A stretch of DNA of 52,216 bases from a virus. How positions within the stretch are numbered: position 1 is the stretch's first letter; each line of letters opens with the position of its first letter. The position numbers were made by a program, and so were the translations under genes. The stretch lies in IMG/VR virus record IMGVR_UViG_3300003177_000008, positions 1 through 52,216 of that record, one strand, 5' to 3'. A model generated the notes under the pieces. That model saw only the letters and a list, made by a program, of their open reading frames with translations, searched no databases and was not told the DNA's origin. Below are positions 2,037-49,489 of this stretch, in pieces.

Positions 2037-2729
2037 TTAAATTCTTCTTTTTCTTTTAAAACTATCCCAGTCATTAAAGATAACTGTGACTTTATCACCT
2101 TTAGAAATTTCAATTTTTTGAACATTATGAACAATATTATTTTGACCATCTACCCAAAGAACAACAGAAGATCTGGATTTACAAGTAATTGAAGTTCTTT
2201 TAGGCTCTATTACATAATGGATTTTTCTATTAGTTTTATCACCGGTAATACTCCAGTTTTTTGAGCCTAGTGGAAGGATAACTCCTCCATTATTTTTATT
2301 AATACCTGTAGAACCTTGGGCGGTACTGATAATTACACCTCCACCTTTAAAGCTACCAATAATTTTATCAGCGTCATGAACATTAAATTCAATCCAAGCA
2401 TCCATATCACCACCAAGCATTATTTCATTAAATGCTTGAAATTCTTTAGTTATGGTTGTAGGATCCTTAAGCTTATTTGGTGTTTGATATGTTACCTTTA
2501 CCTTAATGAGTCTAAAAAATTTAAATTTAGCATTATTTGAAATATTTACTGAGTCATTCATAAGAAAGTTCATAGTTCCTGCACCAATACCGAAAAACGG
2601 CTTATTTAGGTGTCTATATTTGTTAATTGCTTTAAGAAGAGTACCATCTCCACCCTTAGCAATTACGATATTCCCTCTTGCATCAATAAATTTATTTTCA
2701 TCGTAACTATCTTGATAAAACATTTTCAA
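2037..2729 (-). CDS. ATP-NAD kinase (NadK-like)
   Basis: 230 residues, shorter than typical bacterial NadK (about 290) but with the defining motifs. GGDGT is at 26-30, followed by the GAGTMNFL loop. The NE/D motif appears as FNEIMLGGD, and the ISTAQGSTGINKNNGG segment binds the nucleotide. It should phosphorylate NAD to NADP. It lies downstream of the NMN adenylyltransferase and nicotinamide phosphoribosyltransferase genes on the same strand, so together the three could make NADP from nicotinamide. NAD kinase is an uncommon addition to phage NAD salvage sets. Confidence 0.85.
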   Translation of the reverse strand: MKMFYQDSYDENKFIDARGNIVIAKGGDGTLLKAINKYRHLNKPFFGIGAGTMNFLMNDSVNISNNAKFKFFRLIKVKVTYQTPNKLKDPTTITKEFQAFNEIMLGGDMDAWIEFNVHDADKIIGSFKGGGVIISTAQGSTGINKNNGGVILPLGSKNWSITGDKTNRKIHYVIEPKRTSITCKSRSSVVLWVDGQNNIVHNVQKIEISKGDKVTVIFNDWDSFKRKRRI

Positions 2730-2741
2730 TCCTCCTATTAA

Positions 2742-3488
2742 TTACCACAGCCATTCTTTAAGTTTAAAATACACTCTCGCATCTAGAAGATGCTTCATAC
2801 CTTCTATATTCTCTCTAATATCTCTAGCATTGGCATTTATTTTTACATCTGTTCTTTTTACAAATTGTACTTGTTTAAGAACTATTCCTCTATCTCTAAA
2901 AATATCAGTATAAAATGTATTTTTATATTTTTTGTTATTAAAAGTAAATGATGTTCTATCTACCTCTTTATTATGACTAAAAAGAACTATATCATTTACA
3001 ATATCACCATTATAGTCAATTTCTTTATGTAGAGTATCTCCTATATCATTTGTAAGATTACTAAACCACATATCCCAATCAGAATAATCTACTCCTCTAA
3101 TAAAAATTATAGGAATGTTAGGGTAAATAAGTCTTATCAGCTCTTTACGTTGTGCATATGTAAGAGGATTTTTAAATCTATCTCTATCGTCATTAGAACT
3201 TCCAAGAACTATAATAGGAGTAAGCCCTTCAAGCAAAATTTCATTTATAATTTCTTGATGACCTTTATGAAATGGTTGGCATCTTCCAATAAACAATCCA
3301 AATTTCTTTTTAGGTTTTTTAGTTTCATCATATGATTTATTTTCTAGAGCTATTTTTACCTTTTCTAGAGTTTCATCATAATTTACATCGAATGAAGTAA
3401 CTACATCTTTAGTTATTTCTTCAGCTTTTATATCATCACCATGAAGTTCTTTATGAATTCTTATGTAGTGGTTAATATTTTCAATCAT
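2742..3488 (-). CDS. Nicotinamide-nucleotide adenylyltransferase (NadM-type)
   Basis: 248 residues. After an N-terminal extension of about 60 residues comes the nucleotidyltransferase signature GRCQPFHKGH (68-77), then the VLGSSNDDRDRFKNPLTYAQR block and a C-terminal NARDIREN segment in the position of the ISSTxxR motif. It should join NMN and ATP into NAD. It lacks the Nudix half found in some NadM/Nudix fusions; a separate Nudix-like gene lies at 5396-5872. It is 12 bases upstream of the NAD kinase gene. Confidence 0.88.
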   Translation of the reverse strand: MIENINHYIRIHKELHGDDIKAEEITKDVVTSFDVNYDETLEKVKIALENKSYDETKKPKKKFGLFIGRCQPFHKGHQEIINEILLEGLTPIIVLGSSNDDRDRFKNPLTYAQRKELIRLIYPNIPIIFIRGVDYSDWDMWFSNLTNDIGDTLHKEIDYNGDIVNDIVLFSHNKEVDRTSFTFNNKKYKNTFYTDIFRDRGIVLKQVQFVKRTDVKINANARDIRENIEGMKHLLDARVYFKLKEWLW

Positions 3489-3538
3489 AATATTCCTTTA
3501 TTTAAAACTAACTATAAAAAACTGCTCGAGGAGTGGTA

Positions 3539-3622
3539 CTAAAAGGGATCTCTTGCATAAATCATCCTATAACATTCATATATAGTTTTCTTATTAAACT
3601 CTACTAAATTTGTTCTACTCAC
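3539..3622 (-). CDS. Possible 27-residue peptide, GTG start
   Basis: A short frame with a GTG start behind AGGAAG at good spacing, in the gap between two genes. It begins MSRTNLVEFNKK. Too short to judge by composition; recorded because the ribosome site is good. Confidence 0.25.
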   Translation of the reverse strand: MSRTNLVEFNKKTIYECYRMIYARDPF

Positions 3623-3662
3623 TTTTATTACTTCCTAATAGTCGATTTAACCATTTTCTTTA

Positions 3663-3944
3663 TTATATATTTTTTTTTAATCTTTTTCTAGTTTTCATAG
3701 TTGGATATACCTCTAAATCATAAATAGATCCATATGCATATGGATAATTTCCTACCCATATTGTGATATTTACGTCATTAAATTTCATAGTATAACGATT
3801 TATCACAATATCTACATCATCATCCATTAATTTATTAAGAAATTTATCATAATCCTTATCTATAAATCCTATATGATTAGAATCTATATAATACCAATAA
3901 AAACTAACACCTATAATGATAAAAGTTAATATAAAAACAAACAT
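3663..3944 (-). CDS. Small single-pass membrane protein
   Basis: 93 residues. Residues 2-19 (FVFILTFIIIGVSFYWYY) form one membrane helix; the rest is soluble and ends in a basic tail (KTRKRLKKNI). It lies 9 bases downstream of the nicotinamide phosphoribosyltransferase gene within the NAD operon. Function unknown. Confidence 0.55.
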   Translation of the reverse strand: MFVFILTFIIIGVSFYWYYIDSNHIGFIDKDYDKFLNKLMDDDVDIVINRYTMKFNDVNITIWVGNYPYAYGSIYDLEVYPTMKTRKRLKKNI

Positions 3945-3953
3945 ATTTTTTCC

Positions 3954-5366
3954 TTAAGCGTTATTTTCTCTTACTTCTGTAAGAGTATATGTTTTAGTTA
4001 TTTCACCATTTTTAAAAACAGTTTCAAGTACATCATAACTACCATTCTCAAAATCAATTCCAACCCTATCAACAAAATATGACTCGGTAGTTGGATTATA
4101 ATATGTAGTAATTTTACCTCTCTTGGATACTTTATTTGGAGCTGTTACAGGATCTTTATAGACATCAATATCTTTTCTAGCACCATTATCATTTATAGTA
4201 ATACTTGAACATTTTACAGCCCACCCTTGAGTATCTCTATCGTGTTGCTGCATAAGCCAACCACCACTACCAAAGGCAATATTTTCAGTACTATATCCAT
4301 TTTTAACAAGAATATCAAGCATAATCTTCATACTTTCCGTATTAATACCATCTCCCCAGATAATTCTCATTTTATTCCAAACCTTAAATCCTTTATTGTT
4401 TATTGTAAATGGAATTTCATTTCTTTCCATAATCTTAAGAGTCTCTGGAATTATTTCAGCTGGATTACCACTATCTGGACGAATTACAAAAATTGGGTAT
4501 TCTTCAGAATTGATTTTCTTTTGAAATTCACTATCCTGTTTAGTAATCGTATCAACACATTTGAAGTAATCATATGAGTCACAAACTGCTGCAATAATAG
4601 GTTTTCCTTTATTATTTTCGAGATGATTCATAATCATATCAAATTCATTTTCTTTTGTCCAAGAAGTTGTGCTTGAGTGTTCAGTAGCTGGAATACTATG
4701 AGCAATTTCATGTATATTTCCAAGATAATTTTGATACGTAAATTTAATACTTTCAAAATTATCAGTTCCCATAAATCCTGCAGCGAGATGCGCCATACCA
4801 CCAATACCTGCTGATTCAACACTACTTGAACCGCGATCTCCAAAGTTATGATAGCTATAAGCTACAAACGGATTATCTTGAGTTTTTTCTGCATATTCTT
4901 CAAGCATTTTTCTAACAAAATAGCTTCTTGTAGCAACATTAGATGTGTACCAAACTTTCATAAGAACTGTTTCCATCCAAGAAGCTACCCAAAATACCTT
5001 AGGATTAGTACTTTCAACTGTAAAAAGAACATTCTTAACTGGAATTACTTTACCTTCTGGAATAGCTTTAATTTCAACCGGAAGTTTACCTCGGAGTTCA
5101 GTTGCAATATATCTCCATCCATTGTACTCAAAATCAATTCCGTGAGCATCAGCATACATTTTAGCTTCATCCACTTCACTCATTGTAATTGGAGTACTAA
5201 AATATTGTTTTAGAATATATTGTAGACCAAAGAAAAGAGTCTTATCATAAACCTTTCCACTTCTTGCTTCAGCATAATCAAACATACTTATTGTATTACT
5301 TGGATATTGTTTTGGGTGACTGTACTTATAACTATCAGCCAACATAATTCTATTTACATTAATCAT
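3954..5366 (-). CDS. nadV: Nicotinamide phosphoribosyltransferase (NadV/NAMPT)
   Basis: 470 residues, full length for the family. Recognisable blocks are DSYKYSHPKQYP (11-22), FGDRGSSSVESAGIGG (175-190), the phosphorylatable histidine in IPATEHSSTTSW (H230), RPDSGNP and the GSGGWLMQQHDRDTQGWA segment. The enzyme joins nicotinamide to PRPP to give NMN. With the downstream NMN adenylyltransferase this is the two-step salvage route that phages use to rebuild NAD after host defences destroy it. Start ATG follows AAAAGGATAG. Confidence 0.95.
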   Translation of the reverse strand: MINVNRIMLADSYKYSHPKQYPSNTISMFDYAEARSGKVYDKTLFFGLQYILKQYFSTPITMSEVDEAKMYADAHGIDFEYNGWRYIATELRGKLPVEIKAIPEGKVIPVKNVLFTVESTNPKVFWVASWMETVLMKVWYTSNVATRSYFVRKMLEEYAEKTQDNPFVAYSYHNFGDRGSSSVESAGIGGMAHLAAGFMGTDNFESIKFTYQNYLGNIHEIAHSIPATEHSSTTSWTKENEFDMIMNHLENNKGKPIIAAVCDSYDYFKCVDTITKQDSEFQKKINSEEYPIFVIRPDSGNPAEIIPETLKIMERNEIPFTINNKGFKVWNKMRIIWGDGINTESMKIMLDILVKNGYSTENIAFGSGGWLMQQHDRDTQGWAVKCSSITINDNGARKDIDVYKDPVTAPNKVSKRGKITTYYNPTTESYFVDRVGIDFENGSYDVLETVFKNGEITKTYTLTEVRENNA

Positions 5367-6915: not shown

Positions 6916-7216
6916 TGGTGGAGTAGTGGGGAATCGAACCCCAGTCTTAAATTATTTTTTCAGTTGATTTTTACAAGTTTTGAAGTAGGCACAAAAAAGT
7001 ACTAAAAAGTACTGTATGTTTTATCTCATTTACCCAAGAGATTGAGGTTCTAGATTCTGTTGCTAGGCTACTAGAAAGCCCCGTAGCATTAAGCTACAAG
7101 CGCCGCTGGCGTATAATCTGTGTTGTTTACAGTTATTTTTGTTAAGAATTTTAAGTTTTCTTAAAACTACTTGAATCAAAAGATAATCATAATCTAATCG
7201 AAACCTTGTCAACCCC
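6916..7216 (-). ncRNA. ssrA: tmRNA (SsrA) with encoded CCA
   Basis: About 301 nt. The 3' end reads GACTGGGGTTCGATTCCCC, then ACTACTCCACCA. The 5' end reads GGGGTTGACAAGGTTTCGAT, as in tmRNA tRNA-like domains. Acceptor halves GGGGTTG and CTACTCC pair with one U:U mismatch and keep the G3:U70 wobble that alanyl-tRNA synthetase recognises. The tag frame at 7089-7130 reads VNNTDYTPAALVA then TAA, starting at a GTA resume codon. The Helicobacter pylori tag is known to start VNNTDYAPA. It should rescue stalled ribosomes and tag the products. Confidence 0.88.
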
Positions 7217-7277
7217 ATAAGTATTAGGAGTTCTTTTATATAGCGTCGTTCCTAATACCAACGCAAAGTCTATCAAC

Positions 7278-7508: not shown

Positions 7509-8090
7509 GATTTAGAATATCCTACTAATCATAACCTACTAACCTTGGTCGTCTAGGACCTACTCAAAGTGTTCATTAATATTATTTACCCGATAATATA
7601 CATAGTGATTAATAAGATATTCTAAATCTATAGTGGTCAAGCATTAGCTTCTCAGAGGTGTGACAAGGACAAGAACATTCACACTTGAGCCAAAAGATAT
7701 GTAAAGAATTTGCTAACCCGTGTCTTGTCGTTGTCGAGGGTATTCTTTACTCTTTTGAAACCACATGTAAAACTAAAATACCAATACGATTTATAAAACT
7801 AGAAAATACACCTAGATTATAATGCGTTGATATGTAATTATTAGCATTAATTTAAAGTTCAATTTCTTTGAATTAAAAATCGACTCATATTCCTCTTGGT
7901 TTTTACAACCGTAATCTGCTTAGGGACTAAACCCGAATCTCCACTTTCTCCAAAGTGACGTAATAAGTATTTTATACTAAGCAGGTTATTTTAATATAAG
8001 TCTAAGTGTCCTGAGTAAAAACACTTTAAAACCCTAATCTTCTCAAAGGCTTTTTTAAAGTGTTTAGCTCAATTTTAAAAATTCTATCTT
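7507..8090 (-). ncRNA. Large ornate structured RNA candidate (ROOL/GOLLD class?)
   Basis: About 580 nt without a gene, just downstream of a strong promoter module and next to the tRNA array. It contains many perfect stems: 7507-7521 with 7616-7630 (15 bp); 7658-7663 with 7679-7684; 7701-7709 with 7742-7750 (9 bp); 7912-7923 with 7977-7988 (11 of 12); 8019-8031 with 8053-8065 (13 bp). Its length, structure and neighbourhood are those of the giant phage RNAs ROOL and GOLLD. I cannot confirm the family by eye. Confidence 0.6.
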
Positions 8091-8091
8091 T

Positions 8092-8131
8092 CTCTTTATA
8101 TAATATATTATAATATAAAGCTCCTTAAAAA
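8092..8131 (-). promoter_or_regulatory. Promoter of the structured RNA
   Basis: Minus strand TTTTTAAGGAGCTTTATATT followed by ATAATATATTATATAAAGAG. No start codon follows for more than 600 bases, so the transcript is the structured RNA. Confidence 0.65.
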
Positions 8132-8149: not shown

Positions 8150-8596
8150 TTATTTACTAAATTTATCAGCAGCTGTACTTGCACACCAAGAATCTGGCTT
8201 ACAAACTGGTTCTACACCAACAACACCCATAATATATCCTCGGGCTGCATGATAAGCAACATTAGAACCAGTTCCTTCCTTTGGATTTACATCAATATGT
8301 ATTTCAAAGTCTTTATCATAAAGAACATCTTCAAGAGCATTATATAGTTCTGTAACTTTTTCTACCTCCTTCATCATTCTATTAAATGGACGAGAAAGTT
8401 TTCCATCTGTTATGTTCTCAAAAGTAATATCAGCGAAAATCTTAGCTCCATTACATCCATTATAATGAAGAACTAATACGGTAGCGAACTTAACTCTTTT
8501 TTTCTTTATTCTCTGAGAATCTACTCCGAGATAAATTCTAGCGTTTGGATTCTCTTTAATAAATTCTTTTATATATTTTATGTCAAATTTTTCCAT
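8150..8596 (-). CDS. RNase H-like YkuK-family protein (DUF458)
   Basis: 148 residues, about the normal length of the family. Motifs are IYLGVDSQ near the N-terminus, IHIDVNPKEGTGS in the middle, and VCKPDSWCASTAADKF at the end, matching the YkuK pattern of acidic residues on an RNase H fold. Function of the family is not established; a nuclease acting on RNA is plausible given that the gene lies between the tRNA array and the ncRNA. Confidence 0.75.
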   Translation of the reverse strand: MEKFDIKYIKEFIKENPNARIYLGVDSQRIKKKRVKFATVLVLHYNGCNGAKIFADITFENITDGKLSRPFNRMMKEVEKVTELYNALEDVLYDKDFEIHIDVNPKEGTGSNVAYHAARGYIMGVVGVEPVCKPDSWCASTAADKFSK

Positions 8597-8611: not shown

Positions 8612-8689
8612 TGGTATCCCTGATAGGACTCGAACCTATGACCCTCGGAGTCGAAATCCGACGCTCTAATCCATCTGAGCTACAGAGAT
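8612..8689 (-). tRNA. tRNA-Arg (anticodon TCG)
   Basis: Acceptor ATCTCTG/CAGGGAT, anticodon loop TTTCGAC, T arm ATAGG-TTCGAGT-CCTAT, encoded CCA. It is the only arginine tRNA found here, although AGA is the commonest Arg codon in most of the genes. Confidence 0.92.
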
Positions 8690-8694
8690 ATTTT

Positions 8695-8768
8695 TGGAGT
8701 CGATAGAGAATTTCGAAATCTCAATCCTGAGGTTGCAACTCAGTGCCTTTCCTTTTGGCTATATCGAC
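8695..8768 (-). tRNA. tRNA-Cys (GCA)
   Basis: Acceptor GTCGATA/TATCGAC, loop TTGCAAC, discriminator T as usual for Cys, encoded CCA. Confidence 0.92.
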
Positions 8769-8775
8769 ATATTTT

Positions 8776-8861
8776 TGGTGGATAGTATAGGATTCGAACC
8801 TATGCATGTTTTACCATGACGGGTTAGCAACCCGCTCCTTTAACCACTCAGGCAACTATCC
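8776..8861 (-). tRNA. tRNA-Ser (GCT)
   Basis: Class II with a long variable arm; acceptor GGATAGT/ACTATCC, loop TTGCTAA, encoded CCA. Confidence 0.92.
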
Positions 8862-8866
8862 ATATT

Positions 8867-8940
8867 TGGCAGGGTATAGAAGAATCGAACTCCTGTTAAC
8901 GGGTTTGGAACCCGTTGTTCTACCATTGAACTAATACCCT
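8867..8940 (-). tRNA. tRNA-Trp (CCA)
   Basis: Acceptor AGGGTAT/ATACCCT, loop TTCCAAA, G discriminator, encoded CCA. Confidence 0.92.
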
Positions 8941-8947
8941 ATTTACT

Positions 8948-9018
8948 TGGTGCCTATCCCTGGAATCGAGCCAGGCTATTAGAAGTTATGAGCTTCTACT
9001 GTCACCTTGACGATAGGC
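8948..9018 (-). tRNA. tRNA with CAT anticodon and shortened D arm (Met or Ile2)
   Basis: 71 nt. Acceptor GCCTATC/GATAGGC and loop CTCATAA are good, but the D arm is only GTCA-AGG-TGAC, about five bases short. The G1:C72 pair excludes initiator type. It could be elongator Met, or Ile if C34 is lysidylated. Confidence 0.75.
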
Positions 9019-9019
9019 T

Positions 9020-9094
9020 TGGTGTGATCGCAGGGAATCGAACCCTGGTACCTCGAGTCACAGTCGAGTGTACTAACCACTGTACTACGACCAC
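9020..9094 (-). tRNA. tRNA-His (GTG)
   Basis: Acceptor GTGGTCG/CGATCAC with a G at position -1, loop CTGTGAC, encoded CCA. Confidence 0.92.
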
Positions 9095-9131
9095 CTCAAA
9101 AACTTCCTAAAAAATCTCTAAGGTGATTGTT

Positions 9132-9206
9132 TGGAGCGAACGAGGAATTTCGAAATCCCGACACCCGACTTGGAAGGACGGTGCTCTGCCTCTGAGCTAC
9201 GTTCGC
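9132..9206 (-). tRNA. tRNA-Gly (TCC)
   Basis: Acceptor GCGAACG/CGTTCGC, loop CTTCCAA, T discriminator, encoded CCA. One mismatch in the anticodon stem. Confidence 0.9.
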
Positions 9207-9218
9207 ATATTAAAAATT

Positions 9219-9293
9219 TGGTGGTCTAAGCTGGATTCGAACCAACGACCTATCCGTTATGAGCGGAGGGCTCTACCACTGAGCTATTAGACC
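9219..9293 (-). tRNA. tRNA with CAT anticodon (Met or Ile2)
   Basis: Acceptor GGTCTAA/TTAGACC, loop CTCATAA, full-length D arm, encoded CCA. Elongator type; with the CAT tRNA at 8948 one may serve Met and the other Ile (AUA). Confidence 0.88.
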
Positions 9294-9382
9294 AAAGCGC
9301 TGTTTGTCTAATCACCTCCAGACAAACAAAAGAGGTTTCTTTCTTTCAAATGTTGCGCGCTAACATTATCAATAAAAGTTTA

Positions 9383-9469
9383 TAAAGTTTTAGGGACTCG
9401 AGCCCTATATATACACCAGATCTTAATGGGGATCGAACCCAATACTAACCAATAGAACTTTAAAACTTC
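9383..9469 (-). tRNA. Degenerate class II tRNA-like sequence
   Basis: 87 nt with acceptor GAAGTTT/AAACTTT and a good T arm (TAGGG-CTCGAGT-CCCTA), but a weak D arm and an odd anticodon loop TTCGATC. No CCA is encoded. Probably a decaying Ser/Leu-type tRNA. Confidence 0.35.
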
Positions 9470-9540
9470 GTTAAAGAAAATAGGAGATTAACTCCAAAGA
9501 ATATAAGTTATTTTTACTCTTTGGAAATAACCTTTTATAT

Positions 9541-9570
9541 TTTTTATTATATAATAAAAAACTTAAGTCT
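9541..9570 (-). promoter_or_regulatory. Internal promoter of the tRNA array
   Basis: Minus strand ACTTAAG followed by TTTTTTATTATATAATAAAAA, dividing the array into two parts. The stretch 9470-9578 also holds a CCAAAGA/TCTTTGG hairpin and no gene. Confidence 0.45.
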
Positions 9571-9578
9571 TATTTAAA

Positions 9579-9665
<87 letters not shown>

Positions 9666-9671
9666 ATATTT

Positions 9672-9747
9672 TGGTGCATCCGGTGAGATTCGAACTCACA
9701 TTTTTCCGCTTAAAAGGCGGGTACCATAACCATTAGGTGACGTATGC
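9672..9747 (-). tRNA. tRNA-Lys (TTT)
   Basis: Acceptor GCATACG/CGGATGC (one mismatch), loop CTTTTAA, encoded CCA. Its 5' end can also pair in the hairpin ATGCGAC/GTCGCAT with the spacer upstream (to 9779). Confidence 0.88.
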
Positions 9748-9953
9748 GACGATAAACATTTCTTTATTTAAAGTCGCATCCGTGAACCTATGTCTATCAG
9801 TTCAGGCAACGACTATGATTTTTGAACTCTTCATAGTACCTCTTATTTTTAATTATTTTTTGACATCAATTTCTTGACGGATGGAAACTCATAAACCATC
9901 TATTTTTGTTTCGCTACACTGGAAGAAATATCATCTCCGCTCGATATGTTTTT
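9748..9953 (-). other. Structured spacer within the tRNA array
   Basis: No gene. It holds several hairpins: GTCGCAT pairing back to 9744-9750, CTATGA/TCATAG, and GATGG/CCATC followed by TATTTTTG on the plus strand. It may be a processing spacer or decayed tRNA. Confidence 0.35.
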
Positions 9954-10028
9954 TGGTACTCGATAGTAGATTCGAACTACTGACCAATTCCTTGTAAGGG
10001 AATCACTCTACCACTGAGTTAATCGAGT
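9954..10028 (-). tRNA. tRNA-Val (TAC)
   Basis: Acceptor ACTCGAT/ATCGAGT, loop CTTACAA, encoded CCA. Confidence 0.93.
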
Positions 10029-10031
10029 ATT

Positions 10032-10107
10032 TGGTGGAGATATGCAGACTTGAACTGCACTCTCAAGTTTGCAAAACTTGTGTTCTACCCAGATGAACTA
10101 TATCCCC
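10032..10107 (-). tRNA. tRNA-Ala (TGC)
   Basis: Acceptor GGGGATA/TATCTCC, loop TTTGCAA, encoded CCA. Confidence 0.93.
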
Positions 10108-10121
10108 ATTATTTTAACTAA

Positions 10122-10272
10122 AAGAACATATAGTGCTGTCGACTTCTTCCTGGCCGGTCAATCGACGATGGATAACGATACACCGAAAGTGATGATATTA
10201 TGTACACTTAATCTTCTAAAACCACGCTCGCCACCTCTTACACGCGGAACTTCACTTTCTATATATGTTCTT
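10122..10272 (-). ncRNA. Compact multi-branched RNA element
   Basis: Closed by AAGAACATATA (10122-10132) pairing with TATATGTTCTT (10262-10272). Inside are GTCGA/TCGAC, GTG/CAC and CCGCG/CGTGG stems. It is visibly richer in G+C than the flanks, as expected for a folded RNA. Strand is assumed from the surrounding tRNAs. No known family recognised. Confidence 0.45.
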
Positions 10273-10365
10273 TATAATTAAAATACTACTTAACTCTTAA
10301 TAGCTTAAGATTTTTAGAATTAATTTTTTGATACGGATTATTATATCTTCTATTATAATATCTTC

Positions 10366-10530
10366 TCAAATTTTTAATTTTTTAATGCCATCTTCATAGC
10401 TATATGCTACAATGAATCCTCGTTTTGCTAAACTAAAGGCATCATCTTTCTTAATATAATCAAAATATCTTCCATTATATAGTTTAAAATGTTTTTTATC
10501 AATATAATCTGTAATTATATAACTTCTCAT
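10366..10530 (-). CDS. 54-residue hypothetical protein inside the tRNA array
   Basis: Complete frame MRSYIITDYIDKKHF ... IKKLKI with an AAGGAT site 6 bases before the ATG. The sequence reads as one alpha/beta domain rich in Y, D and K. No homology recognised. Genes this small between tRNAs are easily missed. Confidence 0.6.
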   Translation of the reverse strand: MRSYIITDYIDKKHFKLYNGRYFDYIKKDDAFSLAKRGFIVAYSYEDGIKKLKI

Positions 10531-10548
10531 ATTTTATCCTTCTCTTCT

Positions 10549-10620
10549 TGGTATCCTCATATGGAATTGAACCACAAGTATTTGGCTAAGTTTTACCATA
10601 GCATATCTCGTTAATATACC
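10549..10620 (-). pseudogene. tRNA remnant
   Basis: Has a T arm (TGTGG-TTCAATT-CCATA), 3' TGAGGATACCA and a D-arm-like GCTATGGTAAAACTTAGC, but no anticodon arm and no matching 5' acceptor. From 10621 to 10837 I see no gene or tRNA. Confidence 0.4.
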
Positions 10621-10837
10621 CTATATTATATTAAACCATTCAATAGGGGAATAAATAACAAAAGTCCGTTTTAAGGTTTTCCAGATTACTATGTTGTATT
10701 TTCTTTCTTATATAAGTCGGTTTAGAACTTCTATAATACTCGAAAATTCGTAACTCTATTCTAAATCAATTACTTTTAGAATTTCCTATTTCAAGGACCA
10801 AATACTCCAAACCGCTTGGTGAGGACATTCTTAATTA

Positions 10838-10912
10838 TGGCGCCCCTGAAGAATTTCGAAATCTCGACCTCTCGGCTGACAACCGAGCGCTCTTCCTCTG
10901 AGCTACAAGGGC
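10838..10912 (-). tRNA. tRNA-Asp (GTC)
   Basis: Acceptor GCCCTTG/CAGGGGC, loop TTGTCAG, G discriminator, encoded CCA. Confidence 0.92.
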
Positions 10913-10918
10913 ATATTT

Positions 10919-10994
10919 TGGCTCCGATAGCAGGGCTCGAACCTGCGACCCGATGATTAACAGTCATCTGCTCTACCAACTGAGCTATATCGAA
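10919..10994 (-). tRNA. tRNA-Asn (GTT), canonical
   Basis: Acceptor TTCGATA/TATCGGA, loop CTGTTAA, short variable loop, G discriminator, encoded CCA. Confidence 0.92.
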
Positions 10995-11001
10995 ATATTT
11001 T

Positions 11002-11078
11002 TGGTTGCTGAAATGCCAGAGTTGAACTGACTTAACAAGGGTTATGAGCCCTCGTGAGATTCCGACCTCCCACCAGCG
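11002..11078 (-). tRNA. Initiator tRNA-fMet (CAT)
   Basis: 77 nt. It starts CGCTGGT and ends CAGCAACCA, giving the C1:A72 mismatch of bacterial initiators. The anticodon stem has three G:C pairs beside loop CTCATAA. The D arm is short and the T-arm/acceptor junction has two extra bases. Confidence 0.75.
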
Positions 11079-11086
11079 ATATTTAA

Positions 11087-11162
11087 TGGTGCCTACGGTT
11101 GGTTACGCTCCAACTCCTTTAGTTTTTCAGACTAACGATTCTACTAAGTTATCTTCGTAGGC
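11087..11162 (-). tRNA. tRNA-Phe (GAA)
   Basis: Acceptor GCCTACG/CGTAGGC, loop CTGAAAA, encoded CCA. The T loop is AGCGTAA instead of the usual TTCRANT, so folding may be altered. Confidence 0.85.
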
Positions 11163-11175
11163 ATTGCTTATAATA

Positions 11176-11262
11176 TGGAGGATGTGGTGAGACTCGAACT
11201 CACAACGGTTTGACCCGCACACGGTTTTCAAGACCGGCTGTCTCCCTACTGACTACACATCC
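11176..11262 (-). tRNA. tRNA-Ser (TGA)
   Basis: Class II with a long variable arm; acceptor GGATGTG/CACATCC, loop CTTGAAA, T discriminator, encoded CCA. Confidence 0.9.
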
Positions 11263-11287
11263 AAGTAATTTCAAATAACTCTTTTTC

Positions 11288-11318
11288 TATACATATTATA
11301 TAGAAATAAAGCTTAAAA
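11288..11318 (-). promoter_or_regulatory. Internal promoter of the tRNA array
   Basis: Minus strand TTTTAAGCTTTATTTCTATA followed by TAATATGTATAGA, upstream of tRNA-Ser (TGA). The gap 11263-11577 otherwise holds the structured element at 11472-11547 and no convincing gene. Confidence 0.45.
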
Positions 11319-11471
11319 TTCAATAAATCGAGCGATATTTACTAAATATTTCAATATCTTTTAAAAACTCGATTGTAAGATTTATAAGGATTTTCTTACT
11401 TCCTTTGTCTAGGTTCCCGCTTACATCTTCTAGATATAGAAATCTATTAATGCTGAAAGGCGCTGATTGCC

Positions 11472-11547
11472 TGCATTTTCTCACCACTTTGTTTTTCGAA
11501 GAAACAAAGAAAACTTTCTCAAAGAGACTGTAAACACTCAAAATGCA
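11472..11547 (-). other. Nested hairpin element
   Basis: TGCATTTT (11472-11479) pairs with AAAATGCA (11540-11547), enclosing CTTTGTTT/AAACAAAG (11487-11494 with 11502-11509). Possibly a processing signal or small RNA. Confidence 0.4.
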
Positions 11548-11577
11548 AAGTGCTTATTAATATCTTTGTGTAAAATA

Positions 11578-11662
11578 TGGTGCATCTACCCAGATTTGAA
11601 CTGGGACATCCTAGGATAATGAGTCTTAAGCCCATCGCGTCTGCCAATTCCGCCACAGATGC
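11578..11662 (-). tRNA. tRNA-Leu (TAA)
   Basis: Class II; acceptor GCATCTG/TAGATGC, loop CTTAAGA, encoded CCA. Confidence 0.92.
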
Positions 11663-11670
11663 ATTTTTAA

Positions 11671-11747
11671 TGGTCTGTGTAGTAGGGATCGAACCTACGA
11701 CCTCTCCACCCCAAACGGAGTATTCTACCAATCTGAACTATACACAG
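11671..11747 (-). tRNA. tRNA-Pro (TGG)
   Basis: Acceptor CTGTGTA/TACACAG, loop TTTGGGG, encoded CCA. Confidence 0.92.
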
Positions 11748-11755
11748 ATACTTTC

Positions 11756-11831
11756 TGGTGACGCTATCGGGACTCGAACCCGAAATACTACCGTGAAAGG
11801 GTAGTGAGATAACCAATTTCTCCATAGCGCC
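11756..11831 (-). tRNA. tRNA-Glu (TTC)
   Basis: Acceptor GGCGCTA/TAGCGTC, loop CTTTCAC, encoded CCA. Confidence 0.92.
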
Positions 11832-11832
11832 A

Positions 11833-11908
11833 TGGATGAGGTAGAGGGTCTCGAACCCCCGACATACGCGCTCAAAACACGTCGTTCTACCAACTGAACT
11901 ATACCTCA
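11833..11908 (-). tRNA. tRNA-Gln (TTG)
   Basis: Acceptor TGAGGTA/TACCTCA, loop TTTTGAG, encoded CCA. Confidence 0.92.
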
Positions 11909-11913
11909 ATATA

Positions 11914-12000
11914 TGGTGGAAGTGGTAGGATTTGAACCTACTATCCTAAAAAGGCACGGTTTTACAGACCGCTGTGACTCTCCAACTTCACCGCACTTCC
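11914..12000 (-). tRNA. tRNA-Tyr (GTA)
   Basis: Class II as usual for bacterial Tyr; acceptor GGAAGTG/CACTTCC, loop CTGTAAA, T arm GTAGG-TTCAAAT-CCTAC, encoded CCA. Confidence 0.92.
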
Positions 12001-12004
12001 ATTT

Positions 12005-12088
12005 TGGCTCAGGTAGTAGGATTTGAACCTACATTGTCAAAAGACACTGATTAACAGTCAGCTGCATTACCAAGTCTGCCATACCTGA
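12005..12088 (-). tRNA. Unusual class II tRNA with GTT (Asn) anticodon
   Basis: 84 nt. Acceptor TCAGGTA/TACCTGA, G discriminator, loop CTGTTAA, and a 13-base variable arm with a GTC-TTTT-GAC stem. Asn tRNAs should be class I. The T arm is identical to that of the adjacent tRNA-Tyr. The charging amino acid cannot be told from sequence. Confidence 0.8.
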
Positions 12089-12093
12089 ATATT

Positions 12094-12167
12094 TGGTCCT
12101 CAGGGAAAGAATTGAACTTTCGTCTTTCGATTATCGGTCGAACGTTCTACCATTGAACTACCCGAGG
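12094..12167 (-). tRNA. tRNA-Ile (GAT) with C33
   Basis: Acceptor CCTCGGG/CCTGAGG, loop CCGATAA, encoded CCA. Position 33, nearly always T, is C here. Confidence 0.88.
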
Positions 12168-12172
12168 ATTTA

Positions 12173-12249
12173 TGGTGCCGACATTCAGATTCGAACTGAA
12201 AGTCTTTCGCTTACAAGGCGAATGCATTAGCCAATTTTGCTATGTCGGC
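12173..12249 (-). tRNA. tRNA-Thr (TGT)
   Basis: Acceptor GCCGACA/TGTCGGC, loop CTTGTAA, encoded CCA. First tRNA of the array in the direction of transcription. Confidence 0.93.
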
Positions 12250-14331: not shown

Positions 14332-15475
14332 TTACCAGTCATCTAGGGTATCTGTAGTTCTATATACATTCCATTTTAGTGGTTTAGTAATAATTTCTAT
14401 CTTCTTAAGAAAATCTTTCTCCCAGTGTTGTTCATAATCTGCAAATTCTCTAAGATTAATCTCTTTACTAAATCTAGGATCTGTAAAACCTAAGGCACTT
14501 ATAACTCTATATTTATTAGGTTCTCTTACATATACATAACTAAGACTATCTCCTCTTTCAATAGGTGGAAATCTTCCCTCTATACCTAATTCTTTAACTA
14601 GTCTATTATGCTCTAGCGCTGCAGTACTTCCAAGTGGAGCAGTTAGCCAACTTCCATTCTCTTTCTGTCGTTTGTATTTACCATCTTTTTTAATATAATC
14701 TAAATTATTTACTTTAGCAATACGTACAAACTCCACAGGATCTATCTCCCCAAAATCTCTTCTAGCACTATTAATATAATCTTGTAAAGCTCTCTGATCT
14801 TTATCTAAAACTATATCTAATACAGGTCTTAATTTTTGCTTTAAAAACTCCGGAGTACTATATGATACTAAAGATACACCAGTTACTTTCATCTTAGGCT
14901 TAGCTAGAATATGACCATCATTTACTATAACTCTGGTGAAGTATCTTTTACTAGCAAGAGATACAAACCCTCTTGTAATTACCTCATTTTCCATAGCTAG
15001 AGCTGAAGGTTCTCTTAGATTAAAGGTATCTCCTATTTTCTTTAGAGTATCATTAATAATTTTTTGAAGTTTCTCTTCCGAAAACTTCTTAATAAATTTA
15101 ATCTTATCATCATCAGTAAGATCTTTAAATTTTGGAAGTTTCATTAGATTTTGTAAACATACATATCCACTATCTGTATCTGACTGCATAATAAATTCTA
15201 ACTCTTCTCTTTTAGTTTCTAGTCCACAAATATCAGATAAATAATCATTAATAGCCATCATAACCATCTGATTACTCATACGACCACTAGTAGTAATACT
15301 AGCACCTGTTAAAGTACCATTAGCGAATGGGTTGGAATTTAAAGAACTTACCCCGTATGAGCTGTTAAAGTAAAACCTTTAAAACAGTTGAACGATTTTC
15401 ATGAAAATCCTCCTGCTGCTGTATTTTATGTTTAAGACTCAATAATTCAGAGTCAGATAGTTTCTTTATATTCAT
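14332..15475 (-). CDS. 43: DNA polymerase, C-terminal part (gp43B), apparent +1 frameshift
   Basis: An ATG at 15475 sits behind a perfect AAGGAG. It opens a 36-codon frame (MNIKKLSDSELLSLKHK ... STVLKVLL) that matches the fingers region of T4/RB69 polymerase and ends at TAA (15365-15367). The homology continues one base later as NSSYGVSSLN (motif B, NSxYG), then QSDTDSGYVC (motif C, DTDS) and the thumb to 14332. The junction GTT TTA CTT TAA C has the same form as the prfB frameshift site CUU UGA C, with AAAGG upstream. So it is a programmed +1 shift, a mutation, or a one-base sequencing error. Confidence 0.8.
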
Positions 15476-15540
15476 ATATTCTCCTTTTTATATTATATTA
15501 TATAGTAAATTTCTAAAAGTATTATTAAACTTCTAATAAA

Positions 15541-15548
15541 TATAAATA
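15541..15548 (+). promoter_or_regulatory. T4-type late promoter TATAAATA
   Basis: Exact octamer 20 bases before the homing endonuclease ATG. Confidence 0.65.
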
Positions 15549-15567
15549 GTTTATAAAGGTATTTAAA

Positions 15568-16488
15568 ATGATTATAACAAAAGAAAATTATGAAGATATA
15601 TTAGTAGGTAAAAGTCAAAGAATCTCTAGAACAAAAAAGAAACTATATAACTTACCAAAGGATAAATGGTTTAAAAGTATAGCAGAGGCTATTTATTGTT
15701 TTAAACATAATATAGAGGATGAACCTCATTGTTATTGTGGTAATAAATTAGAGTTCGTAAGTACTCTAGAAGGATATCCTTCTCATTGTAGTCTTAAATG
15801 TGCTAGAAGTAAAGAAAGACCTACAGACAATAATGCTAAAGTTCTTACAAAAGATAATGTAAAAGAAATATATTCCGACTCAGGAAAGGTCAAACAAGGA
15901 GCTAGAAATAAGTTTATCATCCCTACAAATTTATACTGGTGTAAATTAATATCGGAAGCAGCTTGTTGTATTATAAACGATATTAAAGAACCTCCAAGAT
16001 GTAAGTGTGGTAAATTGGTTAGTTTCGCTCAGGGAGAGGGTTATAGAAGATTTTGTGGACCTCAATGCTCTAATGGAGATGAAACTACTAAAGACCGAAG
16101 AGCTAAAACTCTTTTAAAGTACTACGGAGTAGAAAATGCATCTCAAGTAGTAACAGGCCTCACTAACTCTAAGAAATATTCACCTGAAAGATATCATCTT
16201 CAAGGCTATTTATATATAATGAGAAGTAAATCGAATAATATGATTAAGGTGGGAGTTTCTACTAATCCAAGAGGTAGGCTAGGTAATTTAAAAAAATATT
16301 GGATAGATCTAAAGCTTGAATTTATATCTTGTTGGATATCTCATGTTTATATGTATGAGGACTTTTTACATAAAAAATATGGAGAATATAATATGAGATT
16401 ATTAGAAGGAGATGGTAGAACTGAATTTTTTCAGGAACATATTTTAAACGATATTAAAGAGGATATCAAAAGTCTAGATATCTTCTAG
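15568..16488 (+). CDS. Free-standing homing endonuclease (GIY-YIG/T5orf172-like) splitting the polymerase gene
   Basis: 306 residues. Two zinc-knuckle-like repeats (CYCGNK ... CSLKC and CKCGKL ... CGPQC) are followed by an RAKTLLKYYGVENASQ DNA-binding segment. A C-terminal GIY-YIG-type domain follows (GYLYIMRSKS ... IKVGVSTNPRGRL). The gene lies antisense between the two polymerase parts, overlaps the end of the N-terminal part by 15 bases and has its own late promoter. Family knowledge: such genes spread by cutting the uninterrupted allele. Confidence 0.8.
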   Translation: MIITKENYEDILVGKSQRISRTKKKLYNLPKDKWFKSIAEAIYCFKHNIEDEPHCYCGNKLEFVSTLEGYPSHCSLKCARSKERPTDNNAKVLTKDNVKEIYSDSGKVKQGARNKFIIPTNLYWCKLISEAACCIINDIKEPPRCKCGKLVSFAQGEGYRRFCGPQCSNGDETTKDRRAKTLLKYYGVENASQVVTGLTNSKKYSPERYHLQGYLYIMRSKSNNMIKVGVSTNPRGRLGNLKKYWIDLKLEFISCWISHVYMYEDFLHKKYGEYNMRLLEGDGRTEFFQEHILNDIKEDIKSLDIF

Positions 16489-19400
16489 ACCCCTTCTTTT
16501 TATTTCCTTTTTAATATCCTCTAATACACCCTCTAATCTCTGAGCCTCTCTCTTCTCCTTAACCCTTTCTAAGAAGAATCTCTCCATCTGAGACGAAAAC
16601 ATACTCTGTTCATCTATTCTATAAAAGTATCCATTAGCAGTAACACATACATTATGCTTCTTAAGAACCTTAGAAATCTCTTCAGAGTTTTCTAATAAAT
16701 TAGTATAATACTCTCTTTCCTCAACAAGATCATTAATCTCACCATTATGTTTTTTAACTATTTCTCCTAATGGTAGGTAGCGACCCTCTTCTATAACGAT
16801 TCCGTCTTTTTCAACCTTATCCGGATACTCTGTTCTATTTAGTTTTTCTTTTATAAAATAATTAAAATATTTTTTTCTTATTTCTTTCAGATCTGGATGA
16901 AGTTCATAATCCTTTACCAAAGTATCTCCACCTATATTAAACGCTCTAATAAGTGAAGGATATAGGGATGTAAAGTCAAAAGATGATACAAAATCATATT
17001 TCCCTGGAACCGTTCGAACCCATCCAGCTAAGAACTGTACATCTTCTTCTGAATATTGTTGTTTTAGTGGTAGAACTAGATTTTTCTTCATAGACTCTTT
17101 AAACATTAAAGCCACCCAGTGTTTTTGAGTACCCCAGTTATCGTCAGGTGATACTCCACAAAAGTATGCAATTTGTAGGTGAGAATCTAAATACTTAGTA
17201 AGATCATCAAGCTCTACAAGAATCTCAACATCTCTCAAAGAATAATCTACGAATCTGTCATATACTACCTGTTCTAACATTTTCTTATTTTCAGGTGTAG
17301 GATCATCTCTATACCTCTTCTGAGCATCAAATATAGGATCTTCTCCTATCTGAGGCTCCTCTAGAGGAAATATGTATCCGTCTCCCGTATAACTACCATC
17401 GAAATTTTTATAAGAGGAGTTATCAATTTTTTGACTTAGACCGAAATGATTAGCTACATTCTTTAAACTATAACTAGGAAGTCCTAAGAAGCCATACTTT
17501 AAAGCTAACTCTCTATAATCAAGTAGTAATCTTCCCCTCCAAAATACCTCAACTCCATCCATTCCATCTAGTGTGTGAGTATCTTTACCATTAACTACAC
17601 CTAGAGGAGATAATCTATTAACATTAGGCATATCTATATAGCTATTTCTCTTATTTAGTTCTTCTTTATAGTTACCATTAAATCCATCAAGAACTCTAGC
17701 TATTCTATTAGTTAAGTAAGGAAAGTCAAACGTTTTACAGTTATGTGTATATATTCCCTGATACTCAAAGTAGTGATTACTAGTCTCTATATCTCTCATT
17801 AGTACACTATCACCCTCTTTTATATCTTTTATACGAATAAAAAAACTACACTTATCTGTTATAAAATATGTAGTATTAAATTGTTTTGATTTTTTTTCTA
17901 GCTTTTCTAACCTTTTAATATTAGTAAATCTCTCTTTAATTTTTATACTATCTTTTAAAATATCTAGAGACTCCGAATCCATGAATGGTCTTAGATACGT
18001 ATTATTCTCTAAAACAAAAGATCCATTCCATCTTAATAATTCTGATACGTTAGAGATATCATTATTAAAATTACAAAAAGTTCCATCTATAGAGCCATCT
18101 CCATCTACTAATCCTGAGTAAAAATATAAAAATTGCTTTTTAGATAGCTGACTTAGTAAGTATATATCTATACATTTTTTAGATTTAGCATTAATATGAT
18201 CATATATTAAAGCTTTAGCTATTAGAAATCTAGCATTACTTAAAAATGCAAATTTAAAAATATATGAATCTTTATGATCTTCAGACTCGAACTTTTTGTA
18301 TTTAAACTTATATTTATCTTTAAGATTTTCAACTACTTTTATATTAGTATTAGTAATAGATGCTTCAGATTTATAACTAGATGTTCCGTCTGTATACCAT
18401 AAACCTGCTAGATACAAAATATCTTCAGATATAACATCATCTAAACGTTCTAATATAGATGTTGTAGGCCTTTTATCTCCATTATATCCGTTATTAAATA
18501 TTTTAATAGATTTACTTCTTTCTATAAATTTAATAACCTCATTCTTTCCTAATTTTTCTAGTATATGTTTACTACTAAAAAAATCCATTTTCTTCTGATA
18601 GATCTCTCCCTCGTAATATTTAGATAGTTTTCTAACTATTTGAGTATCCCTAGTATAAATAAAAATCCCCTTCTTATGAAGAATATCTAAATTTTCAATT
18701 AGTAGTTGTCTATACGTAACATCTCTATTAGTATTATTATGAATTTTATGTTCTAGATATATATAATGATTATCTAGAGAATTAGAAATATTCTCTACAG
18801 TCATGTCCTCTTCTATTAATTCTCCAGAATTATAAGGTGTAAAATATTTACCTTTCGGTACTCTATATGTTTTAAATATATGATCCTTAGATGATGAAAC
18901 TTTCATTCCGTTATCTAATATAATATCAAAAGATTTTTTCTTACTAATAGGAAATATATTTTCTACATATACTCTATCTTCTGACAATCTATCTTTATAT
19001 TTTATATCTGTAAGCTTCTTAATTTTATTATCTGTCCAAATATTAGAATCCAGAGGAATGCAGTTAAAACCAGAAATAATAGAAGGATTATGTTTCTCTA
19101 AAAGCTTTATGAAAAATTCTAGAAGATCTCTCTCATCTTCAATCTTTATAAATTTTACATTATCCTTTTCAAATTTTCCTGTAAAATTCTTTCTTCCTAG
19201 GACTATATATTGATTCGTAAAATTATCATAAATCTGAATCATTGTAATCTCTTCAGGAGCCATATCTGCATGAGGAAAGTGTTGCACTGCATAGTTAGAT
19301 CTAGTCTCAATATCTAGCATCCAAATTCTATGAGTATGAAAACTACTTTCAGAATCAGGAAATGCTCTTTGTAGGAAGGTATGACCTAAATCTAAATATC

Positions 19401-19782
19401 CGAAAGCATCATCTTCAAAGATAGTTTCCTCTATTTCTATCTCTTCTCCATCATACTCAATAGTTTTAATTTCACCTGTCTTTATTTTAATATTTTTTAC
19501 AAATTTATTAAACTCATCTAATGATTCAAAAGATTTTTTAGTAAGAGGTATTTTCTTATCTAAGTAAGACTTATACGGGGAATTTGGTGATTTATTATCT
19601 GAAATAAATATATCAGGAATACTATAATCTGTAACATCTCTAAAAAAAGATTCTTTAGTCTTAGGATCGAAAAGTCTTACTACTACTTGTTTAATTTTTT
19701 TAGTTCTTTTTCCTGATGGTATCTCTTTAGTTAGTGTAAAGATACTTTCATACTGATATTTAGAATAATCTGGTAAATTCAT
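16474..19782 (-). CDS. 43: DNA polymerase, N-terminal part (gp43A) with intein
   Basis: 1102 residues; removing a 441-residue intein leaves about 661. Extein motifs: exo I WMLDIETRS (155-163), exo II N240 rejoined to CKTFDFPYL, exo III YSLRDVEIL (847-855), motif A SFDFTSLYPS (934-943). The part ends in the fingers (REAQRLEGVLEDIKKEI), and the family B palm continues in the separate gene at 14332-15475. Split gene 43 is known in some Aeromonas T4-like phages. The two parts must associate to give an active enzyme. Confidence 0.9.
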   Translation of the reverse strand: MNLPDYSKYQYESIFTLTKEIPSGKRTKKIKQVVVRLFDPKTKESFFRDVTDYSIPDIFISDNKSPNSPYKSYLDKKIPLTKKSFESLDEFNKFVKNIKIKTGEIKTIEYDGEEIEIEETIFEDDAFGYLDLGHTFLQRAFPDSESSFHTHRIWMLDIETRSNYAVQHFPHADMAPEEITMIQIYDNFTNQYIVLGRKNFTGKFEKDNVKFIKIEDERDLLEFFIKLLEKHNPSIISGFNCIPLDSNIWTDNKIKKLTDIKYKDRLSEDRVYVENIFPISKKKSFDIILDNGMKVSSSKDHIFKTYRVPKGKYFTPYNSGELIEEDMTVENISNSLDNHYIYLEHKIHNNTNRDVTYRQLLIENLDILHKKGIFIYTRDTQIVRKLSKYYEGEIYQKKMDFFSSKHILEKLGKNEVIKFIERSKSIKIFNNGYNGDKRPTTSILERLDDVISEDILYLAGLWYTDGTSSYKSEASITNTNIKVVENLKDKYKFKYKKFESEDHKDSYIFKFAFLSNARFLIAKALIYDHINAKSKKCIDIYLLSQLSKKQFLYFYSGLVDGDGSIDGTFCNFNNDISNVSELLRWNGSFVLENNTYLRPFMDSESLDILKDSIKIKERFTNIKRLEKLEKKSKQFNTTYFITDKCSFFIRIKDIKEGDSVLMRDIETSNHYFEYQGIYTHNCKTFDFPYLTNRIARVLDGFNGNYKEELNKRNSYIDMPNVNRLSPLGVVNGKDTHTLDGMDGVEVFWRGRLLLDYRELALKYGFLGLPSYSLKNVANHFGLSQKIDNSSYKNFDGSYTGDGYIFPLEEPQIGEDPIFDAQKRYRDDPTPENKKMLEQVVYDRFVDYSLRDVEILVELDDLTKYLDSHLQIAYFCGVSPDDNWGTQKHWVALMFKESMKKNLVLPLKQQYSEEDVQFLAGWVRTVPGKYDFVSSFDFTSLYPSLIRAFNIGGDTLVKDYELHPDLKEIRKKYFNYFIKEKLNRTEYPDKVEKDGIVIEEGRYLPLGEIVKKHNGEINDLVEEREYYTNLLENSEEISKVLKKHNVCVTANGYFYRIDEQSMFSSQMERFFLERVKEKREAQRLEGVLEDIKKEIKRRGLEDI
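17740..19062 (-). mobile_element. LAGLIDADG intein in the DNA polymerase
   Basis: Residues 241-681 of the N-terminal polymerase part. It begins with C241 (CIPLDSNIW), has a block-B-like SSKDH, two LAGLIDADG motifs (LYLAGLWYTDG at 456-466 and FYSGLVDGDG at 554-563) and ends YTHN before C682. It sits inside the exonuclease II motif, so unspliced protein should lack normal proofreading. Confidence 0.93.
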
Positions 19783-26785: not shown

Positions 26786-27031
26786 CTACTTATAAAACGA
26801 TACAGTATCGTTAGCAACTTCAGTCTCATAACACTCAATCATATCTTCAAGAGTAAACTCTGTAGCCACCATTGATAAAGTATCTCTATGATCTACTAAC
26901 AATGCGCCTGTAGAATCTTCCAACTGGTATGAATATTCACGTCCTAGTTTTGGATTAGGGTTTGGGCATTTACTTTTTATCAAGGTAAGCTCCGGGTTTT
27001 GCTCAAGTGTCAATCTAGTTTCTCTTTTCAT
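26786..27031 (-). CDS. Hypothetical protein
   Basis: 81 residues, starting MKRETRLTLEQNPEL, one small mixed domain, no known motif. First gene behind a promoter module. Confidence 0.5.
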   Translation of the reverse strand: MKRETRLTLEQNPELTLIKSKCPNPNPKLGREYSYQLEDSTGALLVDHRDTLSMVATEFTLEDMIECYETEVANDTVSFYK

Positions 27032-27045
27032 CTTTTTATCCTCTT

Positions 27046-27088
27046 TCTCTTTATATACTATATTATAACATAAAATACCTTAAATCTT
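27046..27088 (-). promoter_or_regulatory. Long early/middle-type promoter module
   Basis: Minus strand ATTTAAGGTATTTTATGTTA followed by TAATATAGTATATAAAGAG. It faces away from the late plus-strand gene at 27124. Confidence 0.6.
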
Positions 27089-27095
27089 GATTAAA

Positions 27096-27103
27096 TATAA
27101 ATA
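27096..27103 (+). promoter_or_regulatory. T4-type late promoter TATAAATA
   Basis: Exact octamer 21 bases before the ATG at 27124; AAAGGA lies between. Confidence 0.65.
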
Positions 27104-48227: not shown

Positions 48228-49475
48228 CTATTTATTCTTAATATTAAAAATTTTATGATGTCTAAGAATTTCAGGCATCTCTCCTGATGTACTTAGCCAA
48301 AGAACAGGTTTTTTAAATTCTCTCCAATTACTATCTGAAGTAATATCTTCGATAAACATATCAGAAATCATAATAAGAACATCACACTTTTCTTTTTTAG
48401 ATTTAATAAATTCCGGACAGGCTCCCATATATGTACCACCATATCCCTTTCTCTTAAATCTTTTAAAATTATTTTTATCAAAAGATTCTACTCTTTTAAT
48501 ATTTGTATCGATCTGAATAATTTTAAGCTCTCCTACATTTTTGATAACTTCATTAATTTCTATTAAACCGTCTAAAACATCACTATCATTCATAGAACCT
48601 GAAGTATCTACACCTACTAACACTATCTGCTTATCTTTCTGTACTTTTTTACCTCTTAGGTCAGCTCTATGTGGAAATCTTCTATTTTTTCTTTTGATAG
48701 TCTCAATTCTAGATCCATTCCTAGAGCTAAGAATTTTTCTTAGCTCCTTTTTCCATGAGATCTTTGCCTTACGCTTAAGTAACTTAAGAATTTGTTCGAT
48801 ATCTCCTGGTGTGTTTCCTCTAGATTGAGAAATAGCTTCCTTCACCATATTCTCAGTAGTAGATTTCATAAGTTCCTCTATACTACTATCACACTCAGAA
48901 TCTTTCCACTCATGAACATCTAATGTCTCATCACCATCTAAATCTGTAAGGTCTGGTTTTTGTTCACCTTGTGAGTTATCTTCAGGTCCATTCCAATCTT
49001 GACCTTGAGATTCTGCCTTATCTTTATCTTTTTGTTGATCTTCTTGTTCTTGCTTTAGTAGTTCATAGTATGTTTCAGCACTTTCATTCTCTGGAAAATC
49101 ATAATCACTAGGATATTGTACACCCTCTGGTAGATTGTCAATTAATTGATTGATTGCAATATCTGCAGCAATATTAAATAATTTATGATCTCTCTCACCT
49201 TTACGAATTAAATGTAGACCTAAAATATGTCTACACTCATGAATAAGAACCGCTATTCTTTCTTCTTGACTGAGTGTATTAAAATAATTACCAATTTTTA
49301 GATTATAATTAATAGAGTCTTTATCGAAATTTACTCCTAAAGTAGGAAATTTAGGATCAAAAATAACATTCATCTTAGCTAAAATAAATCCATAAAAACT
49401 TAATTTCACGTATGTAGGATTGCTAATTAATTTAACAATTGATTCTTGATAATTTTGTTTAATTAAATCTTTCAT
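48228..49475 (-). CDS. Putative metallopeptidase with VWA domain (DUF2201 type)
   Basis: 415 residues. Zinc motif LIHECRHILGLH (HExxH) lies in the N-terminal third. An acidic/glutamine linker follows (EQEDQQKDKDKAESQGQDWN), then a C-terminal von Willebrand A domain with MIDAS DTSGSMNDS. Such proteins pair with MoxR AAA+ ATPases, and one is encoded at 50729-51826. The target is unknown. Confidence 0.8.
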   Translation of the reverse strand: MKDLIKQNYQESIVKLISNPTYVKLSFYGFILAKMNVIFDPKFPTLGVNFDKDSINYNLKIGNYFNTLSQEERIAVLIHECRHILGLHLIRKGERDHKLFNIAADIAINQLIDNLPEGVQYPSDYDFPENESAETYYELLKQEQEDQQKDKDKAESQGQDWNGPEDNSQGEQKPDLTDLDGDETLDVHEWKDSECDSSIEELMKSTTENMVKEAISQSRGNTPGDIEQILKLLKRKAKISWKKELRKILSSRNGSRIETIKRKNRRFPHRADLRGKKVQKDKQIVLVGVDTSGSMNDSDVLDGLIEINEVIKNVGELKIIQIDTNIKRVESFDKNNFKRFKRKGYGGTYMGACPEFIKSKKEKCDVLIMISDMFIEDITSDSNWREFKKPVLWLSTSGEMPEILRHHKIFNIKNK

Positions 49476-49489
49476 CTTTCTATCCTTCT

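Follow-up and report, generated by a model that had tools for sequence, protein, structure and literature searches.

The tmRNA gene and its genomic surroundings

The stretch of DNA analysed here (the window) is a 52,216-base IMG/VR record that represents a fragment of a T4-like myovirus. It harbours genes for a gp20-type portal, a gp21-type protease, a gp23-type capsid protein, NrdA, a ligase, NAMPT and a B-family DNA polymerase, and, as judged by the capsid protein, the isolated phages closest to it infect Vibrio (47% identity) and Campylobacter (45%). tmRNA releases ribosomes that have become stuck and marks incomplete proteins for degradation. A gene for such an RNA had been proposed at positions 6916-7216 in a first-pass annotation that left the strand unstated, together with a covariance-model search and ARAGORN as checks. 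Both were run and matched the same 301 nt, on the minus strand. The match to Rfam RF00023 covers model positions 1-374 and scored 100.3 bits (gathering score 47, E 4.3e-38). The tmRNA is real, and its identity is far beyond chance. A permuted tmRNA (RF04321) was rejected, as its match of 32 bits stayed below the cut-off of 47. The features of the locus are as follows:

6916-7216, minus strand: one-piece tmRNA (ssrA) gene, encoding CCA (ARAGORN, Rfam RF00023)
6998-7013, minus strand: simple hairpin AGUACU-UUUU-AGUACU, where hosts carry further pseudoknot sequence (from the sequence)
7023-7046, minus strand: short pseudoknot PK3 (CUCA:UGGG, AUCUC:GAGAU), a tentative prediction (H-type search; weaker counterpart in the sister phage)
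7048-7081, minus strand: pseudoknot PK2 (GGGCU:AGCCU, UUCUAG:CUAGAA) (H-type search; 5 of 6 pairs of S2 covary in the sister phage)
7083-7097, minus strand: P5 hairpin GUAGC-UUAAU-GCUAC with the tag stop codon (Rfam alignment)
7089-7130, minus strand: tag reading frame GTA...TAA, VNNTDYTPAALVA (ARAGORN; the sister orthologue reads VNNTDYTPAAQVA)
7142-7168, minus strand: pseudoknot PK1 (AGUU:AACU, UUAAGAA:UUCUUAA) (H-type search; equivalent PK1 in the sister phage)
7221-7258, minus strand: 5' flank with the 21-nt block ACGACGCTATATAAAAGAACT (7229-7249) between inverted-repeat arms (identical block in the sister phage)
8150-8596, minus strand: RNaseH_like (PF04308) ORF between the tRNA cluster and the tmRNA (Pfam E 8.5e-19; synteny with the sister phage)
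8612-12249, minus strand: 23 tRNA genes for all 20 amino acids, on the tmRNA strand (ARAGORN, Rfam; same arrangement in the sister phage)

The tRNA-like ends with a G3:U70 wobble, which had been read from the letters, were confirmed. The tmRNA has a tRNA(Ala)-like acceptor with G3:U70, as found in all 92 tmRNAs compared, as well as the UUCGA motif and an encoded CCA; one pair elsewhere in the acceptor stem is a U:U mismatch. The Rfam scan of the 52,216-base window revealed no riboswitch. A nucleotide search with the tmRNA against 50,697 phage records gave no match, and the same was true for the first 25 kb of the window.

A sister phage is represented by a 183-kb contig (IMGVR 3300033146_005641; loci L004/L008, G001) with a capsid protein that is 92% identical. 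It carries 23 tRNAs and a 288-nt tmRNA, and the order DNA polymerase, tRNA cluster, RNaseH_like ORF, tmRNA is common to both phages. Directly before the tmRNA 5' end, the block ACGACGCTATATAAAAGAACT is identical in the sister (corresponding flank at L004 6845-6890) and single-copy within the window, while the arms around it differ (GTATTAGGA/TCCTAATAC in the window, CGTCAG/CTGACG in the sister). The 5' flank is thus a candidate for an RNA leader hairpin or for a promoter in a palindrome.

Several further observations were made in the two phages. The DNA polymerase B ORF (16474-19782, minus strand) contains a long in-frame insert that is absent from the sister phage, begins with CIPLDS, ends with THN|C and includes two LAGLIDADG-like stretches; it is likely an intein in the exonuclease part, as judged from these motifs. 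The polymerase is also split (14332-16488), with a T5orf172-domain, homing-endonuclease-like ORF on the plus strand (15568-16488) between the two parts and the region of the conserved NSxYG motif lying upstream of the second ORF in two reading frames. In the sister phage the polymerase is a single 1006-aa gene, and the split may reflect an intron, a frameshift or an assembly error. NAD kinase-like, nicotinamide-nucleotide adenylyltransferase-like and NAMPT genes stand in a row at 2037-5366 (minus strand), and possibly serve to rebuild NAD+ during infection. Dispersed repeats of about 40-75 nt (75-155, 1352-1416, 8082-8118, 27025-27100, 49470-49539 and 51820-51889), of which the sister phage has some 30 copies, are possibly repeated promoters with ribosome-binding sites. 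Leucine-rich-like repeats of 63 nt (21 aa) are found at 51974-52216 of the window and at about 6050-6660 of L004, and are strongly amplified in the sister phage. A MoxR-like AAA ATPase and a putative metallopeptidase-domain (DUF2201/VWA-like) protein are encoded near each other (48228-49475 and 50729-51826, minus strand).

The proteolysis tag and its C-terminal end

The tag frame was expected to start at GTA, and ARAGORN indeed placed it from 7130 down to 7089, predicting the tag (A)VNNTDYTPAALVA, with small or hydrophobic C-terminal residues. The tag is of the xNNTxYxPA type of the Campylobacterota tmRNA lineage, whose host tags read ANNTDYRPA and the like, so that by its residues the assignment as Campylobacterota-like holds. 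The narrower pattern VNNTDY(T/A/S/P)PA occurred in one contig only of our genome collection, a Campylobacterota MAG with the isolate name EPR_DSHV; H. pylori was absent from these matches, and the collection may lack or mask this species.

Comparison with 90 Campylobacterota tags, which stem mostly from the best-scoring genomes of a tmRNA scan and are not a random sample, showed the host tags to be diverse. Their last residues are KAA (23), AVA (18), KVA (17), AAA (11), LAA (6), VAA (6) and others, and their final two residues are AA in 52 cases, VA in 37 and IA in one. An LVA or QVA ending was found in none of the 90 sampled tags. The last two residues of the phage tag nevertheless lie inside the host range, and an altered choice of protease is therefore not supported. 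The tag of H. pylori ends with AKAA, and a tagged protein became only slightly more stable when the last two tag residues were replaced (PMC2584231), so that inferring a protease switch from the end residues would be too simple. Together with the QVA ending of the sister tag, these data leave little weight to the earlier proposal that a change from AKAA to ALVA redirects proteolysis.

Size, structure and conservation in the sister phage

Both phage tmRNAs, of 301 nt (window) and 288 nt (sister), fall below the length range of the 90 Campylobacterota tmRNAs compared (352-394 nt, median 371). The prediction of a short gene with a reduced set of pseudoknots was thus correct: in the tmRNA alignment the region 3' of PK2, including the hairpin region at 6998-7013, is shrunk compared to the hosts, while PK1 and PK2 are kept. 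An H-type search found PK1 and PK2 in both phages, and a PK3 in the window with a weaker one in the sister. PK1 and PK2 are clear, whereas PK3 is tentative, because the search used a crude energy model without shuffled control and also reported spurious overlaps with the tRNA-like domain (TLD).

The tmRNAs of the two phages are 69% identical. Their tags differ in three codons, two of them synonymous, and the sole residue change is L/Q. In PK2, TTCTAG:CTAGAA in the window corresponds to TATAGT:ACTATA in the sister, the longer stem of which was registered by hand; five of six pairs are changed on both sides and all remain paired. One both-sided change each, with pairing retained, was also observed in PK1, P2 and the T-arm. 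Both phages have UUCGAU and AGAC, where the hosts have UUCGAC (89 of 90) and GGAC (81 of 90), which according to the Rfam structure is a compensatory change from C:G to U:A at the first P2 pair. The covariation between the phages rests on one comparison of two sequences. As judged from these two sequences, the orthologue in the same place with its compensatory helix changes speaks for selection for a working structure rather than for a relic. Two further loci (L109 and L110) that matched a conserved string of the tag region lie in unrelated sequence lacking a tmRNA, and their matches are due to chance.

Origin and role of the phage tmRNA

The phage likely infects Campylobacterota, because of the tag, the Campylobacter phages among its closest relatives and a ClpP-like gene of the sister phage that matches Campylobacter phages. 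A tmRNA match was present in 200 of 200 Campylobacterota genomes, in 199 of them above the cut-off. A tree built from 92 tmRNAs places the two phages on a branch of 0.9 beside Helicobacter-like rows with VNN tags (unstarred support 88/83; the group names Helicobacter-like and Nautiliales-like were read from the tag type). Grouping of the phages with the Nautiliales-like rows was not rejected (p-AU 0.15), in a tree with a long phage branch that cannot test other phyla, since all rows are Campylobacterota. A single clade of the phages and the vent MAG L005 was marginally rejected (p-AU 0.043) despite nine common tag residues. The capture from a Campylobacterota host suggested in the first-pass annotation is plausible, with the tree pointing to no single donor lineage. 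A 19-kb piece, compared to 60 genomes for a host link by shared DNA, gave no more than two weak short matches, and naming the host by tRNA similarity was discarded, such similarity being too widespread.

Phage tmRNAs are known from mycobacteriophages (Bxz1, Catera, Wildcat) and Bacillus phage G (PMC4131195, PMC7474061), which likewise carry a complete ssrA but infect other host phyla than the likely Campylobacterota here. In huge phages tmRNA was reported along with SmpB (PMC7162821). A survey from 2022 counted tmRNA in 402 of 18,146 phages (PMC9004378), in agreement with the annotated view that they are uncommon, and the tmRNA of the window is therefore a new example of a trait known from a few per cent of phages. 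No report of a tmRNA in a Campylobacterota phage was found in a limited literature search of open-licence papers. The T4-like methylophage Melnitz (PMC9004378), likewise a marine myophage with T4-like genes, also carries a tmRNA from a bacterial lineage; this RNA is two-piece permuted and comes with a glutamine riboswitch, whereas the tmRNA of the window is one-piece and Rfam revealed no riboswitch there. By their capsid and portal proteins, the Campylobacter phages CP220 and CPt10 (Firehammervirus group) rank among the nearest isolated relatives, and they share a ClpP-like gene with the sister phage, but the two Campylobacter phages scanned, CP220 and CC_R7, had no tmRNA match. With the bacterial one-piece ssrA of Campylobacterota the phage tmRNAs have in common the TLD with G3:U70, the encoded CCA, a resume codon, the xNNTxYxPA tag, PK1, P5 and PK2; they differ in their length, in having less pseudoknot sequence after PK2, in the U:A at the first P2 pair, in the tag ends ALVA/AQVA and in being phage-borne.

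The complete TLD with G3:U70, the resume codon, the Campylobacterota-type tag, PK1 and PK2 and the conservation in the sister make us fairly confident that this is a functional, vertically inherited phage tmRNA. It most likely sustains ribosome rescue during infection, beside the full tRNA set. By analogy with tmRNAs in general, host AlaRS would charge it with alanine, and the charged tmRNA would bind host SmpB and EF-Tu. In the infected cell it could then enter ribosomes that have stalled on broken (non-stop) mRNAs and add (A)VNNTDYTPAALVA, by which the ribosome would be freed and the tagged protein delivered to host AAA+ proteases. SmpB was not detected in the window, which is a fragment, in the 183-kb sister or in four further contigs; since neither phage was found to encode it, host SmpB is probably used. 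The benefit would be the supply of ribosomes during infection, with the tmRNA and the tRNAs for all 20 amino acids acting as a translation-RNA set.

A different selective reason for the same rescue activity would be that the tmRNA and the tRNAs replace host RNAs cut by toxins or anticodon nucleases, the phage copies differing enough to survive. The presence in both phages of a complete tRNA set next to the tmRNA and the distance to host tmRNAs (branch of 0.9) are consistent with such defence-resistant replacements, but an old phage gene would be expected to diverge in any case, and we regard this special case as possible though rather doubtful. It is very unlikely that the short RNA acts as an inhibitor, titrating SmpB of the host and blocking its trans-translation. 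Hudson et al. (PMC4131195) mentioned possible inhibition by a phage RNA that consists of hardly more than a TLD, but here the tag frame with its stop codon as well as PK1 and PK2, none of which an inhibitor would need, are kept and conserved in both tmRNAs. The shortened 3' part and the long branch would also suit a host gene picked up in passing and now decaying, a reading which the in-place orthologue with 69% identity, paired changes and a conserved tag renders extremely improbable.

It is also conceivable that the tag end directs tagged proteins to a different protease, perhaps the ClpP-family protein of the sister phage (256 aa, L140 1312-2082), which has Ser and His motifs and an 84% identical counterpart in a second relative. 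This would fit the lack of LVA and QVA endings among the sampled hosts. However, -VA endings are common there (37 of 90), end residues carry little weight in H. pylori (PMC2584231), the ClpP-like gene also occurs in Campylobacter phages (best phage matches CP21, CPt10 and CP220), the two scanned being without tmRNA match, and its PHROG matches comprise head-maturation as well as ATP-dependent proteases. We consider such reprogramming very unlikely. The same holds for a tagging route of the phages' own, in which the compact tmRNA with its phage-specific tag end, the phage ClpP-like protease and the full tRNA set work together; if true, phage translation would depend little on the small RNAs of the host.

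Ribosome rescue by a functional phage tmRNA thus remains our preferred reading. The finding adds an apparent Campylobacterota-type tmRNA to the list of phage tmRNAs, in a phage with tRNAs for all 20 amino acids. The orthologue pair suggests a phage tmRNA that is selected for structure and tag while host pseudoknot sequence was lost, and the reason why phages retain ribosome rescue may therefore be tested by comparison.
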